Shown here: positions 19,907 through 61,493 of the stretch, piece after piece | How the letters are laid out: each line of letters starts with the position of its first letter | Numbering within the stretch: position 1 is the first letter of the stretch | NCBI RefSeq assembly: GCF_000025965.1 | Contig: NC_006513.1 | Span: forward strand, 2,914,001 to 2,978,000 | Length of the DNA: 64,000 nt | Reading direction: 5' to 3' | Source of the DNA: Aromatoleum aromaticum EbN1 | GTDB taxonomy: Bacteria; Pseudomonadota; Gammaproteobacteria; Burkholderiales; Rhodocyclaceae | Notes under the pieces: generated by a model | Told to the model about the DNA's origin: nothing | What the model saw: the letters and a program-made list of their open reading frames with translations, nothing else | Database searches by the model: none | Position numbers and translations under genes: made by a program

Positions 19907-19988
19907 GCGCGATGTCGAGCGCAGTGATGTCGGGCCGGTTCGAGAGCAGTCGCGTGAGCCAGTTCATAGCTATAGCTGGTAGTCGAGC
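19907..19988. repeat. Right copy of direct repeat flanking the mobile island (contains truncated exonuclease 5' end)
   Basis: 82 bp matching 11744-11819 with a 6-bp insertion and one silent substitution. It holds a 20-codon fragment of the exonuclease gene (ATG at 19967, reading MNWLTRLLSNRPDITALDIA) that stops at the island, and the last codons of the intact DUF294 gene. In a strain without the island the exonuclease would sit immediately after the DUF294 gene. Confidence 0.92.
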
Positions 19989-21883
19989 TTCAGCCGGAGC
20001 TGGAGCTTGCGAGCCTGGCGAAACGCTTCCTTGAGGATGCGACGGTCGAGTTCATTGAGTTCGTCGGGATTGATGCGGTTGTCGCCCGGCGCATCGTGTT
20101 CGGTTTCGAGATGCTGCGAGCGCAGGCGCAGCAACTGGATGAAGTGGAAGCCATCGATCAGCGCCGCGATTTCCTCGGCCTGCATGCCCATCTTCGCGCC
20201 GGCCTGGCGCAGGCGCTGGACAGTGCTGCTCGAAGCGACGCCGGTGCGCAGCGCGAGGATGCGGGCGACGTCGACGAACAGGCGGGCGCCGCATTTCTTC
20301 AAGTCGATCGTGTCGTCGTCGTCGACCACGAAATCGCGAATGCGGCCGAGCGGCGGGGCGACCTGAAGGGCGTTCACGGCCATCATGCGCAGGAAAGCCG
20401 TATTCGCTCGCGCGGTATTGTTCAGCCAGGTGCGCAACTGGTCGCCCAGCCGTTCGTTGCCGCACAGCACGCGGTAATCGAAGAAAATCGATGCATTGAG
20501 CAGCGCCTGTGGGTCCGGTTCGCGGATCCAGTCGCCGAAACGTCCTCGCCATTCCTCTACTGTCAGGCACAGCTCCGGGTTGCTCGCCATGATGTTGCCC
20601 TTGCACAGCGGAAAACCGCAGGCCGCGAGGTTTTCGTTCACCTCCCTGCCGAACGCGAGCAGAGGCTTGCGCAAGGCTTCCCTGTCGGCGCCTGGCGGGC
20701 TGACGAAGATCACGCCATTGTCCTGGTCCGAGGACAGGGTCTGTTCATGCCGTCCTTCGGAGCCGAACGCGAGCCAAGCGTAATCGATGCCGTGGATGTC
20801 GTGTCTGGCGGCGGCGAGGTCGATGATGCGGCGGGTGAGCGCATCGTTGAGCGCGGAGATGAACTGGGTCAGCTGTTCGGCGCCGACGCCCTGGGCGATC
20901 AGGTTCAGCGCGAGCTGGCGAATGTCGCGGCTCGCCCGCTGCAGCCCGTCCACGTCCACCGCGCCCTCGATGCCGGCGCGAACCTGGCGCAGGCTGATGC
21001 GCTGCAGCGAGAACAGGTCGCGCTCGGACACGACTCCCTTGAGCCTGTCGTCGCTGTCGGTGACGAGCAGGTGGCGCACGCCATGCGTCGCCATTTCGAG
21101 CGCCGCGTCGTACGCGGACGCCGAGGCCGGCATCCGGTGCGGATCGCGGGTCATCACCTCGCTCACCGGACGCTGCAGGTCGATCGCCGGCAAAACGATG
21201 CGCGACAGCAGGTCGCTCTGCGTGAGGATGCCGACCGGGCGCTGTTCGGCGTCGACGATCACCATGCAGCCGAGGCGCATTTCGGACATCTTTTCGAGCG
21301 CCGCGCGGATCGACGTTCCGGGTGTGACGAAGATCGCTTCCTTCTTCACGAGTTCGCCGAGCGGCGTCGTCATCGTTTGCTGCTCGGCGGCGCGCTGCGC
21401 GAAGCTGGTCTGCAACTGCTGGCGCGACTGGTTCAGCAGGCTGGCGATGTACTGGGTGCAGAACAGGTGGAACACCGGGCTCATCTGCATGAGCTTGAGA
21501 AAGTCCTCGGCCGGCAACTGGTAGATGAAGCTGTCCTCGACGGCGACGTAGCTGTTCGTCGACGGGTGCTGCGACGAAATCGCGCCGATCGGGAAGCATT
21601 CGCCCGGCCCGAGCGTCATCGTCGTGTAATCCGTGACGGTTGCGGGGCCGAACTGGCGCGCCTGCACCTTGCCGCGCTGGATGATATGAAAATGTCGCGG
21701 TTGCCCCATCTCGGGCGTCAGGATCTCGCTGCCCCGCGCATGAAACGCCAGCACTGCGCGCTCGGCGAGGAAGTCGAGCGCGGGGGGCTCCATCCGGTTG
21801 AAGGGCGAGAAGCGCTTGAGAAAATCCGAGCTGGCGCCGATCAGCATCCCGGCGGCGGTGGCGGTCATGGGGCTCTTCCGCAC
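19970..21883 (-). CDS. cNMP-binding/CBS/DUF294 nucleotidyltransferase-like signalling protein
   Basis: 637 aa, cytoplasmic, with four modules. A cyclic-nucleotide-binding-like domain (about 20-140, LGPGECFPIGAIS) is followed by two CBS domains (about 180-300, GCMVIVDAEQRPVGILTQSD and VRHLLVTDSDDRLKGVVSERD). Next is a DUF294 nucleotidyltransferase core (about 340-470) with YAWLAFGSEGRHEQTLSSDQ and following DN, then a DUF294_C helical domain. Such proteins are thought to sense nucleotides and transfer a nucleotidyl group to unknown partners. The start is ambiguous between 21883 and 21868. It normally precedes a DnaQ-like exonuclease, from which it is here separated by the island. Confidence 0.92.
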   Translation of the reverse strand: MRKSPMTATAAGMLIGASSDFLKRFSPFNRMEPPALDFLAERAVLAFHARGSEILTPEMGQPRHFHIIQRGKVQARQFGPATVTDYTTMTLGPGECFPIGAISSQHPSTNSYVAVEDSFIYQLPAEDFLKLMQMSPVFHLFCTQYIASLLNQSRQQLQTSFAQRAAEQQTMTTPLGELVKKEAIFVTPGTSIRAALEKMSEMRLGCMVIVDAEQRPVGILTQSDLLSRIVLPAIDLQRPVSEVMTRDPHRMPASASAYDAALEMATHGVRHLLVTDSDDRLKGVVSERDLFSLQRISLRQVRAGIEGAVDVDGLQRASRDIRQLALNLIAQGVGAEQLTQFISALNDALTRRIIDLAAARHDIHGIDYAWLAFGSEGRHEQTLSSDQDNGVIFVSPPGADREALRKPLLAFGREVNENLAACGFPLCKGNIMASNPELCLTVEEWRGRFGDWIREPDPQALLNASIFFDYRVLCGNERLGDQLRTWLNNTARANTAFLRMMAVNALQVAPPLGRIRDFVVDDDDTIDLKKCGARLFVDVARILALRTGVASSSTVQRLRQAGAKMGMQAEEIAALIDGFHFIQLLRLRSQHLETEHDAPGDNRINPDELNELDRRILKEAFRQARKLQLRLKLDYQL

Positions 21884-47863: not shown

Positions 47864-47971
47864 GAGAACCTGCAGGTGCTGGCTCCCGGCGCGGCGGAAA
47901 GAGTGCTTTGGTGCGTTGCAGCAAAATGCTAGTCTTCAATGCACGGAATAACGCATTGGAGCGAAAACGGT

Positions 47972-50296
47972 ATGAGCGAAGCTGACCTGAAGAGGTTTTT
48001 CCTCGAGCAGGTACGCCTGTTCGAAAGTTTCCCTGCGGGCAAGGTCGAGGAGATCCTCGCCAGATCCCGCATGGCGACTTTCGAGGGCAACGAAGCGGTC
48101 CTCGAAACCGGTGACGAGGGCCGCTATATCGGAGTGGTGGTCAGCGGCCACGCCGAGATCTCGATCACCGACAATACCGGCACGCGCTCGGTGGTCAGCC
48201 AACTCGGCGCGGGTGATGTGTTCGGCGTGATGTCGCTGCTTACGGGCGATCGCATCATTGCCGACGTCATCGCCGGCAACCGCTGCTTCGTGCTGATGAT
48301 CCCGCGGGAAGTCTTCGAAGCCTGCATCCTGGCCAACCCGAAGGCTGTCGCCTACCTCTCGCGCCTGCTGGCCGAACGGAGCCGGGCGATGTCGGTGGAT
48401 CTCGCGACCGCCCGCAGCCGCGCCATCGCCAGATCGGATGATCCCTATGCGCTGTCGCTCGGTACCAGCACGCCGGGCAAGGTCCTGGTGCTCAACGTCG
48501 GAATCAGCCAGATTCATTTTGGCATCTACGACACCCGGGATCTCGGTTCCGACATCCACGGCATCATCGACAACATCGACGAGGACGTTGCCCGCATCAG
48601 CGTCGCAGTCGGTCCGCATGTCCGCAACATGGAGCGTGCGCGGTTTCCGCTGTCCGAGCTGTTCGCGGTGATGCAGGCGGCCACCGGACTGCTCGGCGAT
48701 GCGTTCGCCTTTCACCCGCAGGAGGTCGGGGCGGTTGGCCATCGCGTGGTGCATGGCGGGAGCAGGTTTTCCAGTGCGGCGGTCATCACGCCGGCGGTCA
48801 TCGCCGACATCGAGGCGCTGTCGGTATTCGCGCCGCTGCACAACCCGGTAAACGTCGAAGGCATCCGCGAGGCAATGAGGCAGCTGCCCGCGGTGCCGCA
48901 TGTCGCGGTGTTCGACACCGCCTTCCACCAGACTCTGCCGCCCTACGCGTATCTGTACGGGTTGCCCTACGAGCTGTACAAGCAGGGCGGCATCCGCCGC
49001 TACGGGTTCCACGGCACCTCGCACCGCTACGTGTCGCTGAAGGCGGCCGAAGTGCTCAGGCGTCCGCTGGGCGAGCTGGAGATCGTGTCCTGCCATCTCG
49101 GGATCGGCGCCTCGCTGTGTGCAATCGACCACGGCCGCTCGGTCGATACCACGATGGGGATGACGCCTGCCGACGGCCTGATCATGCCAAGTCGCTCCGG
49201 CAGCGTCGATCCGGCGGTGATGATCCATCTGTTGCAGGACTGCGGGATGTCGCCGGAGCAGCTCTCGAATATGATCAACACCGAGAGCGGCATGAAAGGC
49301 ATTTCCGGCATCTCCGGTGATATCCACGAGATCGAGGCCGCGGCCGGCGAAGGACATCATCGCGCGCTGCTTGCGCACAAGGCGTTCTGCTATCAGGTGC
49401 GCAAGAACATCGGCGCCTGCGTCGCGGCGATGGGGGGCATCGATGTGCTGACTTTCACCGGCGACGTCGGCGAAACCAGTGCCGCCGTGCGCAGCCTGGC
49501 CTGCCAGGGCCTCGGTTACATGGGCATCAGGCTCGACGAGGAAAAGAACCGCAACCTCGGCAAGGTGAACGCCTGCAACGTCATCTCGGCTGCTGATTCA
49601 CCGGTCACCATTCTTGTCATTGCCAATGACGACGAGCGTCTGGTGGCTTGGGAAACCCTGCGCGCGATCGAGCGCAATGACCTGACGGTGGCGATGAAGG
49701 AAGGCCATCCCGAGGCGCCGATCCCGATCGAGGTCTCGGCCCACCACGTGCACCTGTCGCAAGCCGACGTGGAAAAACTGTTCGGACCCGGGCACCAGCT
49801 GACGCCGGAACACGAGCTTTCCCAGCCTGGCCAGTTCGCCTGCAGCGAAAAGGTTCACCTGGTGGGTCCCAAGGGGCGGATCGCCAACATGCGCGTTCTC
49901 GGACCCACGCGCAAGGAAACCCAGGTGGAGATCGCCATGACCGAGCAGTTCAAGGTCGGCATCCAGCCTCCGATCCGCCAGTCCGGCGACCTCGCCAATA
50001 CTCCCGGCGTGACTCTCGAAGGCCCGTACGGCAGCACGACGCTCGAGCGCGGCGTGATTTGCGCGCAACGGCATATTCATATGGCTCCAGAGGACGCGCT
50101 GCGCTTTCGCGTGCGCGACAACTACGTCGTGCGCGTACGTGTGGGCGGTGACCGCGAAATGATCTTCGGCGATGTCGTGGTGCGGGTGAATCCCGCCTAT
50201 CGCCTGGCAATGCATATCGATACCGACGAGGGCAATGCGGCAAATATCCGGACCGGCATGATCGGCTACATCGAGGAGATCCAGAGCCGGCACTAG
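47972..50296 (+). CDS. Trifunctional fusion: cyclic-nucleotide-binding domain, acetate kinase, PduL phosphotransacylase
   Basis: 774 aa from the ATG at 47972 (GGAG 10 nt upstream). Residues about 10-130 form a cNMP-binding domain (VLETGDEGRYIGVVVSGHAE, GAGDVFGVMSLLTGDRIIA). Residues about 165-565 are an acetate/propionate kinase: VLVLNVGISQIHFGIYD, GHRVVHGGSRF, FDTAFHQTLPPYAY, RYGFHGTSHRYVS, IMPSRSGSVDP, TFTGDVGETSAAVR, with the catalytic Arg, Asp, His and Glu retained. Residues about 590-765 are a PduL-type phosphotransacylase: VSAHHVHLSQADVEKLFGPG, ELSQPGQFACSEKV, QRHIHMAPEDALRFRV, AMHIDTDEGNAA, with the zinc-binding His motifs. One chain could therefore interconvert acyl-CoA and acid plus ATP, gated by a ligand-binding domain. 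Confidence 0.93.
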   Translation: MSEADLKRFFLEQVRLFESFPAGKVEEILARSRMATFEGNEAVLETGDEGRYIGVVVSGHAEISITDNTGTRSVVSQLGAGDVFGVMSLLTGDRIIADVIAGNRCFVLMIPREVFEACILANPKAVAYLSRLLAERSRAMSVDLATARSRAIARSDDPYALSLGTSTPGKVLVLNVGISQIHFGIYDTRDLGSDIHGIIDNIDEDVARISVAVGPHVRNMERARFPLSELFAVMQAATGLLGDAFAFHPQEVGAVGHRVVHGGSRFSSAAVITPAVIADIEALSVFAPLHNPVNVEGIREAMRQLPAVPHVAVFDTAFHQTLPPYAYLYGLPYELYKQGGIRRYGFHGTSHRYVSLKAAEVLRRPLGELEIVSCHLGIGASLCAIDHGRSVDTTMGMTPADGLIMPSRSGSVDPAVMIHLLQDCGMSPEQLSNMINTESGMKGISGISGDIHEIEAAAGEGHHRALLAHKAFCYQVRKNIGACVAAMGGIDVLTFTGDVGETSAAVRSLACQGLGYMGIRLDEEKNRNLGKVNACNVISAADSPVTILVIANDDERLVAWETLRAIERNDLTVAMKEGHPEAPIPIEVSAHHVHLSQADVEKLFGPGHQLTPEHELSQPGQFACSEKVHLVGPKGRIANMRVLGPTRKETQVEIAMTEQFKVGIQPPIRQSGDLANTPGVTLEGPYGSTTLERGVICAQRHIHMAPEDALRFRVRDNYVVRVRVGGDREMIFGDVVVRVNPAYRLAMHIDTDEGNAANIRTGMIGYIEEIQSRH

Positions 50297-58209: not shown

Positions 58210-58566
58210 ATGACCACGATCCAGATCTTCGATCCCGCGCTGTGCTGCAGTTCCGGTGTGTGCGGCACCGATGTCGACCAGCAGCTCGTGAACTTCGCCA
58301 CCGACGTCGAGTGGGCGAAGCAGGAGGGCATCGCGATCGAGCGCTACAACCTCGCCCAGCAGCCGCTCGCGTTCGCCGGGAACGCGGTGGTGAAAGGCTT
58401 CCTTGAGCGTTCGGGCGCCGACGCGCTGCCGCTGGTGCTCGTCGACGGCGAGATGGCGCTCGCAGGGCGCTACCCGACTCGCAGCGAGTTGGCGCGCTGG
58501 GCGGGAGTGGCGAAGCTCACGCCGTTGCCGGCGAGCGAGTGCTGCAGCGGCGGCCGCTGCTGCTGA
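58210..58566 (+). CDS. arsD: Arsenic metallochaperone ArsD
   Basis: 118 aa; delivers As(III) to the ArsA ATPase. ArsD pattern: IQIFDPALCCSSGVCGTDVD with the three conserved Cys (CC...C), FATDVEWAKQEGIAIERYNL, LPLVLVDGEMALAGRYPTRS and a Cys-rich tail ECCSGGRCC. Lies 27 nt after arsC and 14 nt before arsA. Confidence 0.96.
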   Translation: MTTIQIFDPALCCSSGVCGTDVDQQLVNFATDVEWAKQEGIAIERYNLAQQPLAFAGNAVVKGFLERSGADALPLVLVDGEMALAGRYPTRSELARWAGVAKLTPLPASECCSGGRCC

Positions 58567-58580
58567 GCGCGGGAATCGCG

Positions 58581-60359
58581 ATGCGTTTCCTCGACCAGCC
58601 TCCGCGTTACCTGTTTTTCACCGGCAAGGGCGGCGTCGGCAAGACTTCGCTCGCGTGTGCGACCGCGATCCACCTTGCGGCGACCGGACGCAGCGTGCTG
58701 CTCGTCAGCACCGACCCCGCGTCGAACGTTGCGCAGGTATTCGAACAGGAAATCGGCAACCGCATAACGCCGCTGACGGCGGTGCCCGGCCTGTCGGCGC
58801 TCGAGATCGACCCGCAGGCCGCTGCGCAGGCTTATCGGGAGCGCATCGTCGGTCCGGTGCGCGACGTGCTGCCCGAGGCCGTCGTGCGCGGTATCGAGGA
58901 ACAGTTGTCCGGCGCGTGCACGACCGAGATCGCGGCGTTCGACGAGTTCACCGGCCTGCTCACGGATGCGGCCTTGACGGCCGGATTCGACCACGTCGTG
59001 TTCGACACCGCACCGACCGGCCACACGATCCGCCTGTTGCAATTGCCAGGCGCATGGTCGGGTTTCCTGCAGAACAATACCGACGGAGCGTCCTGCCTCG
59101 GCCCGTTGGCCGGGCTCGACAAGCAGCGCGAGCAGTACGGCGCGGCGGTCAGCGCGCTCGCCGACCCGGCGCGCACGCGGCTGGTGCTCGTCGCGCGCGC
59201 CCAGGCTTCGACGCTGCGCGAAGTCGCCCGCACGCATGTCGAGCTCGCGGCGATCGGTCTCGCACGGCAGTTCCTCGTCATCAACGGGGTATTGCCCGCC
59301 GCGGAAGCGGCTGCGGACGACGCGTTGGCGGCGGCGGTGCTGCGGCGCGAAGCGGCGGCGCTCGACGAGCTGCCTGCCGGGTTGCGCGATCTGCCGACCG
59401 ACCGCGTGCCGCTGATGCCGTTCAACCTGGTCGGCCTGCCGGCGCTGCGGGCCTTGCTCGGCAGCACCGAGGCGGCAGCGCAGGCCTCGGCCCCCGCCGC
59501 TGCGCCGGACGATCGCCCCGCCTTGCCGGACTTGGCGAGCCTCGTCGATGAACTGGCCACCGATCGTCATGGGCTGGTGATGCTGATGGGCAAGGGCGGT
59601 GTCGGCAAGACGACGCTGGCGGCGGCGATCGCCGTGGAGCTTGCGCAGCGCGGCTTCCCGGTGCATCTGACGACGTCGGACCCGGCAGCGCACCTCGCGG
59701 ACACGCTCGACGGCTCGCTGGCGAACCTCACCGTCAGCCGCATCGATCCGCAGGCGGAGACGGAACGCTACCGTCGCGATGTGCTCGATACCCGCGGCGC
59801 GAGCCTCGACGCCCAAGGCAGGGCGCTGCTCGAAGAAGAGTTGCGTTCGCCCTGCACCGAAGAGATCGCGGTGTTCCAGGCGTTTTCGCGCGTCATCGGC
59901 GAGGCCGGGCGCAAGTTCGTGATCATGGACACGGCGCCGACCGGCCACACGCTGCTGCTGCTCGACGCGGCCGGGGCGTATCACCGCGAAGTGGCGCGCC
60001 ACATGGACAAGAGCGGCGTTGCGCAATTCACGACGCCGATGATGCAACTGCAGGACCCCGCGCAGACGAAAGTGCTGGTCGTGACCCTCGCCGAGACGAC
60101 CCCGGTGCTCGAGGCCGCGAGCCTGCAGGCCGATCTGCGCCGCGCCGGTATCGAGCCGTGGGCGTGGATCATCAACAACAGTCTGGCCGCGACGACGACC
60201 GCGGCACCGATGCTGCGCCGGCGCGCCGGGCAGGAATGGGCGCAGATCGAGGCGGTGCGCGAGCATCACGCGAAGCGGCTCGCGCTCGTTGCGATGCAAG
60301 CCGACGAGCCGACCGGAATCGGGCGGCTGCGGGCGCTGGCGGGAAATCATGCGAATTGA
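58581..60359 (+). CDS. arsA: Arsenite-activated ATPase ArsA (two ATPase halves)
   Basis: 592 aa. Two homologous halves, each with a deviant Walker A: YLFFTGKGGVGKTSLACATA (near residue 12) and MLMGKGGVGKTTLAAAIAVE (near residue 335), each followed by the DTAPTGHT signal-transduction motif. The metal-site Cys are seen in GACTTEIAAF and SPCTEEIAVF. It energises arsenite export with the membrane pump. The start at 58581 (MRFLDQPPRYLFF) is preferred over a frame extension into arsD. Confidence 0.96.
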   Translation: MRFLDQPPRYLFFTGKGGVGKTSLACATAIHLAATGRSVLLVSTDPASNVAQVFEQEIGNRITPLTAVPGLSALEIDPQAAAQAYRERIVGPVRDVLPEAVVRGIEEQLSGACTTEIAAFDEFTGLLTDAALTAGFDHVVFDTAPTGHTIRLLQLPGAWSGFLQNNTDGASCLGPLAGLDKQREQYGAAVSALADPARTRLVLVARAQASTLREVARTHVELAAIGLARQFLVINGVLPAAEAAADDALAAAVLRREAAALDELPAGLRDLPTDRVPLMPFNLVGLPALRALLGSTEAAAQASAPAAAPDDRPALPDLASLVDELATDRHGLVMLMGKGGVGKTTLAAAIAVELAQRGFPVHLTTSDPAAHLADTLDGSLANLTVSRIDPQAETERYRRDVLDTRGASLDAQGRALLEEELRSPCTEEIAVFQAFSRVIGEAGRKFVIMDTAPTGHTLLLLDAAGAYHREVARHMDKSGVAQFTTPMMQLQDPAQTKVLVVTLAETTPVLEAASLQADLRRAGIEPWAWIINNSLAATTTAAPMLRRRAGQEWAQIEAVREHHAKRLALVAMQADEPTGIGRLRALAGNHAN

Positions 60360-60377
60360 AGGGAGGCAGCGCTTGTC

Positions 60378-61493
60378 ATGTCCGCGCAAGGTGAAGTGAT
60401 GGCGCAAAACGAGGCATGCGTTCCGCTCGGACGATTCGAGCGTTACCTCAGCGTCTGGGTGTTCCTGTGCATCGTCGCAGGCACGGTGCTGGGGCAGGTC
60501 CTGCCGGCGGCGGCCCAAGCGGTGGGACGGCTCGAAATGGCGCACGTCAATATCCCGGTCGGGGTGCTGATCTGGGTGATGATCGTGCCGATGCTGATGA
60601 AGATCGACTTCGCCTCACTGCACGAAGTGCGCGCACAGGGGCGCAGCATCGGCGTGACGCTGTTCGTCAACTGGGCGGTCAAGCCGTTCACGATGGCGCT
60701 GCTCGGCTGGATCTTCATCCGCCATGTGTTCGCGCCGTGGCTGCCGGCCGAACAGCTGGACAGCTACGTCGCCGGGCTGATCCTGCTCGGCGCGGCGCCC
60801 TGCACGGCGATGGTTTTCGTCTGGAGCAACCTGTGCCGGGGCGATGCGAACTTCACGATCAGCCAGGTCGCGCTCAACGACCTGGTGATGGTGTTCGCCT
60901 TTGCGCCGATCGTCGCGCTGCTGCTGGGCGTGTCATCGATTCCGGTGCCGTGGGAGACGCTGTTCCTGTCGGTCGTGATGTATATCGTCATCCCTCTGGC
61001 GATCGCGCAGTTCGTGCGTCGGCGGCTTCTCGCCCGCGGTGAGCCGGCTTTCCGTCACGCGATGGAGCGCATCGGCCCGGTTTCGATCGTTGCACTGCTG
61101 GCGACGCTGGTGTTGCTGTTCTCGTTCCAGGGACAGGCGATCATCGAGCAGCCGCTCGTCATCGCGATGCTGGCGGTGCCGATCCTGCTGCAGGCAATAT
61201 TCATCGCCGCGCTCGGCTACTGGCTGAACCGCAGGCTGGGAGTCGCGCACAGGGTGGCAGGTCCTTCGACGATGATCGGCGCGTCGAACTTTTTCGAACT
61301 GGCGGTCGCGGTCGCGATCGTCCTCTACGGCTTCGATTCGGGCGCAGCGCTGGCGACCGTTGTCGGCGTGCTGATCGAGGTGCCGGTCATGCTGTGGCTG
61401 GTGCGCATGGTCAATGCGAGCAAGGGCTGGTACGAAGCGGGCGCCGGGGCCGCCAGCCTCGCCGTCGTGGTGCCTCGTCGCCCATCGCGTTGA
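60378..61493 (+). CDS. acr3: Arsenite efflux permease, ACR3 family
   Basis: 371 aa with ten membrane segments. ACR3 signatures: FLCIVAGTVLGQVLPAAAQA, VPMLMKIDFASLHEVR, VNWAVKPFTMALLGWIFI, LLGAAPCTAMVFVWSNLCRG with the essential Cys in helix 4, VALNDLVMVFAFAPIVALLLG and STMIGASNFFELAVAVAI. It exports As(III), here with ArsA. The start is either 60378 or the ATG at 60399. It is the last gene of arsRCDA-acr3. Confidence 0.95.
   Translation: MSAQGEVMAQNEACVPLGRFERYLSVWVFLCIVAGTVLGQVLPAAAQAVGRLEMAHVNIPVGVLIWVMIVPMLMKIDFASLHEVRAQGRSIGVTLFVNWAVKPFTMALLGWIFIRHVFAPWLPAEQLDSYVAGLILLGAAPCTAMVFVWSNLCRGDANFTISQVALNDLVMVFAFAPIVALLLGVSSIPVPWETLFLSVVMYIVIPLAIAQFVRRRLLARGEPAFRHAMERIGPVSIVALLATLVLLFSFQGQAIIEQPLVIAMLAVPILLQAIFIAALGYWLNRRLGVAHRVAGPSTMIGASNFFELAVAVAIVLYGFDSGAALATVVGVLIEVPVMLWLVRMVNASKGWYEAGAGAASLAVVVPRRPSR

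Follow-up and report, generated by a model that had tools for sequence, protein, structure and literature searches.

The 64,000-nucleotide stretch of the Aromatoleum aromaticum EbN1 genome analyzed here (NC_006513.1, positions 2,914,001 to 2,978,000; hereafter the window) contains a gene whose single product joins a cyclic-nucleotide-binding (cNMP) domain, an acetate-kinase-like domain and a PduL-type phosphotransacylase (PTAC) domain. The fusion itself is known in outline, since acetate kinase (Ack)-PduL fusions were published by Erbilgin et al. 2016 (PMC4784909); what is unusual is a family-wide remodeling of the ATP site, with the acyl pocket and the PduL domain kept. We favor, with moderate confidence, the reading that the fusion is an active PduL phosphotransacylase carrying a kinase fold repurposed to bind acyl phosphate without using ATP.

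The three-domain architecture is genuine. The reading frame runs from its ATG to its stop codon without an internal stop (Table 1), and all three domains exceeded their curated Pfam cut-offs (acetate kinase PF00871, 414.4 bits against 22; PduL PF06130, 256.3 against 25; cyclic-nucleotide-binding PF00027, 60.7 against 27.5), as did two NCBIfam models theirs (TIGR00016, ackA, 398.8 bits against 293.4; NF011652, phosphate propanoyltransferase, 260.6 against 209). The single uninterrupted protein proposed in a preliminary description of this DNA, made from the sequence alone, is thus borne out. A frameshift or misassembly is ruled out by 61 further distinct relatives that cover all three domains, one of which (L036) ends early at residue 735; the copy from another genome of the same genus (G553) is 97.5% identical to the window protein over its entire length. 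An AlphaFold2 model (mean predicted local distance difference test score, pLDDT, 76.8; predicted template modeling score, pTM, 0.59; kinase blocks at 63-95, mostly above 80) matched acetate kinases and R. palustris PduL in Foldseek, and the predicted structure supports the fold assignment.

Nucleotide and acyl sites of the kinase domain

To describe the active site, we compared 62 distinct fusions with 90 other AckA proteins, carrying over M. thermophila numbering through a HMMER alignment to 1g99. The 62 fusions comprise 59 of the 60 copies from the sample of same-family genomes described below (the G359 copy was not included), together with L035, L036 and L038, for which the family is not stated; L034 was excluded as identical to L154, and L089, which has a stop within its stretch, was omitted from alignment A1. 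The 90 comparison kinases were mostly the best matches of earlier homology searches and are therefore biased towards canonical ones.

On the nucleotide side, five residues are absent from every fusion: Ser10, Gly331 and Glu384 (each present in 90/90 other AckA), Gly239 (89/90) and Asn211 (88/90). Asp takes the place of Gly331 in 50 fusions, with Glu in 5, Arg in 5, Ala in 1 and Gln in 1, and Asp replaces Glu384 in 60. Thr240 and Arg285, both found in 90/90 comparison kinases, persist in 4 and 6 fusions, respectively, the latter position being His in 53. Where 89/90 other AckA have Ser12, 61 fusions have Gln and one has Arg, and the Lys14 position, Lys in 90/90, is His in 47 and Arg in 15. The Asn335 position holds Thr in 52 fusions, Ser in 7 and Asn in none. 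At positions 10, 211, 239 and 331 the replacing residues differ between copies.

The acyl side is kept. The acyl-site and catalytic residues Arg91, His123, Asp148, His180 and Arg241 are invariant in the fusions, as are Gly9, Val93, Phe179, Gly212, Pro232 and Glu334, and conservation is nearly as high at His208 (61/62), Asn7 (59/62, with Asp in 3) and Leu122 (55/62). The metal-ion residues, for which we took Asn7, Lys14, Asp148 and Glu384 as the equivalents of those in S. typhimurium AckA (PMC3475010), are divided, Asn7 and Asp148 being retained as above and Lys14 and Glu384 being found in 0/62. The preliminary description had correctly noted the altered first kinase motif (Table 1). Its further claim, of catalytic residues otherwise being in place, is correct only in part: the window protein is also changed at the Asn211, Gly239, Thr240, Arg285, Gly331, Asn335 and Glu384 positions.

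Single changes at Asn211, Gly239 or Gly331 are reported to cut the activity of M. thermophila AckA by 6-fold to ~200-fold, and Gly331 is called completely conserved in acetate kinases, that of E. histolytica excepted (PMC4390882). With several such replacements combined in one protein, ATP-dependent activity of the fusion kinase appears improbable.

In one genome (G435, locus L144) two fusion genes lie in tandem; in both, Asn7 is replaced by Asp and Ser11 by Arg, and Gly239-Thr240 is Ser-Ala in one copy and Pro-Thr in the other.

The PduL domain is intact at its known ligand positions. We located, by motif rather than by structure, the positions of the zinc ligands and of the phosphate arginine that PMC4784909 names for R. 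palustris PduL; His48, His50, Glu109, His157, His159 and Arg103 are kept in 62/62 fusions and His204 in 61/62, the remaining copy being truncated there. The R. palustris protein (5cuo), the Foldseek match at 46% identity, thus shares its ligand and Arg103 equivalents with the fusions, in which, by contrast, PduL lies behind a kinase-like domain.

The N-terminal domain has lost its cyclic-nucleotide residues. The cassette arginine that binds the cAMP phosphate is present in 0/62 fusions (Thr stands there in 20), and the next Ala is Val in 36. The cassette glutamate, which binds the ribose, is present in 23 and absent from 39, including the window protein. We therefore rejected cAMP sensing by this domain, and the gating by cAMP or cGMP that had been suggested earlier is not supported. 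In trypanosomatid protein kinase A (PKA) regulatory subunits with nucleoside ligands the cassette arginine is likewise replaced, but the extra Glu that these subunits need for nucleosides (PMC10959531) is Ser or Ala in all 62 fusions, and nucleoside sensing of the trypanosome type was rejected on this ground.

Distribution, relatives and constraint

In the window's own genome the only PTAC match sits in the fusion, and the fusion kinase is one of two acetate kinases. A search of 300 genomes of the order gave full-length matches, among the matches listed, from 5 genomes including this one, the sample containing 9 of the same family. We then took the family itself: PTAC matched in 74 of 297 same-family genomes, in 59 of them within an open frame of at least 777 residues, in 14 within frames of 191-327 residues and in one as a fragment. 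Such recurrence also speaks against an artifact. The 59 fusion genomes hold 60 copies, the tandem pair of G435 included; within the window's genus the fusion occurs in 2 of 12 genomes. Relatives with names, from which we take the family to be Rhodocyclaceae, are metagenome-assembled genomes (MAGs) assigned to Azonexaceae, Zoogloea, Rhodocyclales and an uncultured beta proteobacterium.

Across the phylum PTAC was found in 5/349 genomes, own included; G861, from another class, encodes a three-domain protein by Pfam (L208), and G895 and G904 encode kinase-PduL proteins. Within the order of G861 the count is 3/199, G861 included. In Nitrospirota, Ca. Magnetominusculus has the three-domain type by Pfam (L037), and PTAC matched in 9/198 genomes of that phylum, 8 of these with more than one row. 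L208 and L037 share with the window protein the order cNMP_binding, Acetate_kinase, PTAC, but differ in retaining Ser10, Lys14, Asn211, Gly239, Gly331 and Glu384. Two-domain proteins, with Acetate_kinase then PTAC on a single chain, are found in Rhodobacter sp. NTK016B (L040) and on a Polaromonas plasmid (L279, annotated as an acetate/propionate family kinase); they differ from the window protein in that Pfam finds no cNMP domain, and the kinase site of L040 is canonical. The Polaromonas gene (L279 4026-6572) has fabI as its neighbor, with ppk2 and a gene for a metal P-type ATPase close by. A Paracoccus plasmid matched both the kinase and the PduL parts, and S. meliloti has a kinase gene followed by a short PduL/EutD gene.

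The resemblance to the fusions of Erbilgin et al. lies in PduL (two PF06130 barrels) occurring as part of multidomain proteins that carry an acetate kinase annotation and are said to have no encapsulation peptides (PMC4784909). The difference is that the available text of that account mentions neither an N-terminal cNMP domain nor a remodeled nucleotide site, whereas in the class described here the ATP site is replaced throughout. A literature search that reached few subscription papers found no description of a remodeled-kinase class.

Three-domain proteins with a canonical nucleotide site include L208, which has Gln at the Glu334 position and Thr at the Val93 position, and five Nitrospirota proteins (L274-L278). 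Because such relatives exist elsewhere, we conclude that the nucleotide site of the fusions was remodeled. In a tree built by a quick method, with a long-branch warning, the 62 altered fusions form a single group adjoining L208; eight proteins with a different set of changes (Gly9 to Arg in 8/8, Asn211 to His in 7/8, Asp283 to Tyr in 8/8) make up a second group within the Nitrospirota proteins. We repeated the tree on 31 of 80 rows, once with the kinase domain minus 17 key columns and once with PduL alone. Both repeats recover the two altered groups, the Nitrospirota one in 98% and 94% of bootstrap trees; with PduL alone the Nitrospirota proteins overall are not one group, and the PduL branches of L276 and L277 are long. 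From these two separate groups, remodeling of the kinase site seems to have occurred twice.

Several Nitrospirota genomes carry more than one copy. One altered-kinase and one canonical-kinase copy each are found in G1107, G1245, G1261, G1265 and G1285, and an altered copy together with a PduL bearing a short leader in G1210, G1173 and G1194. The paralogues of G1285 show complementary losses, the kinase-intact L277 lacking 5/6 zinc ligands and the arginine, which the altered-kinase L269 keeps. In L262, L267 and L268, ~145 residues precede PduL that by eye resemble a remnant of the C-terminal half of the kinase; a Pfam scan of L262 gave PTAC only and no kinase profile.

The fusion is under strong constraint. 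We estimated the ratio of nonsynonymous to synonymous substitution (dN/dS) as pairwise Nei-Gojobori medians over pairs with dS of 0.1-1.2. Of the three domains PduL is held most tightly (mean identity 87%, median dN/dS 0.11), followed by the kinase domain (75%, 0.24) and the cNMP part (62%, 0.37). In ten genomes, with orthology of the stand-alone kinases assumed, the fusion kinase domain was more alike than the stand-alone AckA in 40/45 pairs (means 75.1% vs 65.9%). Because it is better conserved than the stand-alone enzymes of the same genomes, we do not regard the kinase domain as junk.

Candidate roles of the fusion

In the reading that we favor, the PduL domain would interconvert acyl-CoA and inorganic phosphate (Pi) with acyl phosphate and CoA, reversibly. 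The kinase fold, its acyl and acyl-phosphate pocket kept and its ATP site lost, would most likely bind the free acid or acyl phosphate and form no ATP, and may gate PduL in response to acyl phosphate or act as a holder on it. It might instead act as a dimer partner that recruits to PduL the canonical acetate kinase encoded separately in the genome; a mixed dimer is conceivable because S. typhimurium AckA forms a stable dimer (PMC3475010). The CRP-like N-terminal domain would sense some other ligand or serve in assembly.

The partner kinases of the fusion genomes bear on this proposal. Another AckA is present in 55 of the 59, and each of ten stand-alone AckA proteins, taken from ten genomes, has the canonical residues at all listed positions. 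In the window's genome the canonical second AckA (G000:C1:1319476-1320624) comes after a gene whose product has MaoC and PTA_PTB domains (L212 4059-6652). In contrast to the altered fusions, those of G861 and G1111, with a canonical site, are each the sole AckA of their genome, which speaks for the favored reading. The altered fusion is an addition to the usual AckA of the family and not a substitute for it.

Other observations weigh against this reading. At least one AckA occurs in 280/297 same-family genomes and hence in 221/238 of those lacking the fusion, so that a second AckA is the family norm and is not linked to the fusion. No second AckA was found in G341, G350, G429 and G480 (250-730 contigs each, with one assembly 98% complete), nor any other in G1109, a Zoogloea MAG with an altered fusion. 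The near-fixed Gln12 (61/62) and His/Arg14 (62/62) fit a new catalytic specificity equally well. The altered Nitrospirota kinases keep Gly239 and Gly331 in 8/8 and Lys14 and Glu384 in 7/8, which makes loss of ATP use less clear in that group. Finally, the conservation described above could be inflated by sporadic distribution or horizontal transfer.

The alternative that survives best, which we regard as possible but unlikely, is that the kinase domain is catalytic and uses pyrophosphate (PPi) and Pi in place of ATP and ADP, as the E. histolytica enzyme does (4h0o; PMC5517563); with PduL, the overall reaction would be acyl-CoA + 2 Pi <-> acid + PPi + CoA. Asn211, Gly239 and Gly331, which differ in the PPi-dependent enzyme and were studied for nucleotide use (PMC4390882), are changed in all 62 fusions, one copy (L160) has Gln at 331 like E. 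histolytica, and the invariant acyl-site residues are accompanied by the new residues at 12 and 14. The replacing residues, however, are mostly Ile/Val, Pro and Asp rather than Thr, Ser and Gln, they vary between copies, and Glu384 has become Asp in nearly all. The PHOSPHATE2 loop of the amoebal kinase is longer by one glycine (Gly203; PMC5517563), which the fusion lacks, its HLGIG and the canonical HLGNG aligning gap-free; the fusion further differs in being joined to PduL. Introducing Gly331Gln-Ile332Met into M. thermophila AckA gave no PPi use (PMC5517563). H+-pyrophosphatase was found in 35/59 fusion genomes and 153/238 others (Fisher p 0.55) and was not found in the window's genome, and we rejected PPi harvesting by this enzyme. 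A marginally less probable, wider version of this proposal is that the fusions form a family-wide Rhodocyclaceae PduL class whose acetate kinase is the second of the non-ATP kind to have evolved independently, PPi/Pi-dependent and covalently paired with an acyl-CoA-consuming partner.

We consider it improbable that the fusion is the bifunctional enzyme of the preliminary description, channeling acyl-CoA to acid and ATP under the control of cAMP or cGMP. Two consecutive enzymes do share one chain, channeling was already put forward for Ack-PduL fusions (PMC4784909) and is a possibility here, and the canonical-site relatives L037 and L208 could form ATP in this way. Against this, every one of the 62 fusions has lost ATP-site residues, including those at which single changes impair the M. 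thermophila enzyme, as well as the cNMP arginine, and most fusion genomes have another AckA.

Somewhat more doubtful still is that the kinase domain passes the acyl-phosphate group on to a different acceptor (protein, metabolite or some other nucleotide) or hydrolyzes it; the kept pocket and an ADP site remodeled with near-fixed residues at 12 and 14 would suit such a role, but the neighboring genes, which do not recur, suggest no acceptor. That the fusion is decaying and PduL alone still matters, as the apparent kinase remnants of L262, L267 and L268 might suggest, is very improbable given the low dN/dS of the kinase domain and its conservation relative to stand-alone AckA.

These 62 distinct bacterial proteins, lacking Gly331 and other ATP-contacting residues with the acyl pocket kept, may represent either a previously unreported class of non-ATP or non-catalytic acetate kinases or a second acetate kinase of the PPi type. 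As the TIGR00016 score lies above its cut-off, automatic naming may assign to these genomes an ATP-forming step that is not there.

Gene start, neighborhood and feature coordinates

We preferred the listed start over an upstream ATG at 47939 because a Shine-Dalgarno-like motif precedes it (Table 1) and because 8 other Rhodocyclaceae rows of the alignment have a Met aligned with it. A scan for promoters and terminators around the gene gave signals not above those of shuffled sequence. A PHROGs search had zero matches and PADLOC gave 4 weak ones, to the cNMP part; a phage or defense origin was rejected on these grounds.

Table 1. Coordinates of the fusion gene and of its domains and motifs in the window
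Feature	Position	Strand	Basis
cNMP-like / acetate-kinase-like / PduL fusion gene, 774 residues	47972..50296, stop included	+	open frame, Pfam, NCBIfam
GGAG, Shine-Dalgarno-like, 10 nt before ATG	47958..47961	+	read from sequence
cNMP_binding domain, residues 36-120	48077..48331	+	Pfam E 1.4e-16
Phosphate-binding cassette in degenerate form, residues 85-97; residue 86 (Glu position) = Val, residue 95 (Arg position) = Ile	48224..48262	+	alignment
Acetate_kinase domain, residues 170-559	48479..49648	+	Pfam E 4.8e-124
Altered PHOSPHATE1 motif NVGISQIH (for NxGSSSxK), residues 175-182	48494..48517	+	alignment
Asn211 position, residue 378 = Ile	49103..49105	+	alignment
LOOP3, residues 406-408: Pro-Ser-Arg for Gly239-Thr240-Arg241	49187..49195	+	alignment
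ADENOSINE motif FTGDVGET, residues 495-502; Asp498 = Gly331 position, Thr502 = Asn335 position	49454..49477	+	alignment
Glu384 position, residue 554 = Asp	49631..49633	+	alignment
PTAC / PduL domain, residues 585-759	49724..50248	+	Pfam E 1.8e-76; 5cuo match
HVH zinc-ligand motif, residues 592-594	49745..49753	+	alignment
HIH zinc-ligand motif, residues 701-703	50072..50080	+	alignment

For the neighborhood we clustered the longest open reading frames of 59 stretches, namely 58 loci plus a portion of the window, and considered the 45 largest clusters; some stretches are near-duplicates, and this crude gene calling may miss weak conservation. The fusion cluster was placed in 47/59 stretches. 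Neighbors do not recur among these clusters, the largest other one reaching 8 loci and the next 6; the 8-locus cluster was seeded by an antisense frame, which displaces the fusion there. We therefore rejected an operon or pathway context for the fusion. The redox and aor setting suggested earlier fares no better, as the match to AFOR_C (aldehyde ferredoxin oxidoreductase C-terminal) runs from 63216 off the right edge of the window, beginning 12.9 kb past the fusion stop. A second AFOR_C match lies at G000:C1:3182012-3183346.

Elsewhere in the window, a 637-residue frame at 19970-21883 on the reverse strand combines cNMP_binding, a CBS pair and a DUF294 nucleotidyltransferase domain, and is a second multidomain protein of the cNMP type. 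At 58539-61490 on the forward strand, an ArsA-type ATPase gene is followed by one for a transporter of the sodium/bile-acid symporter family, and the two look like an arsenic-resistance pair.

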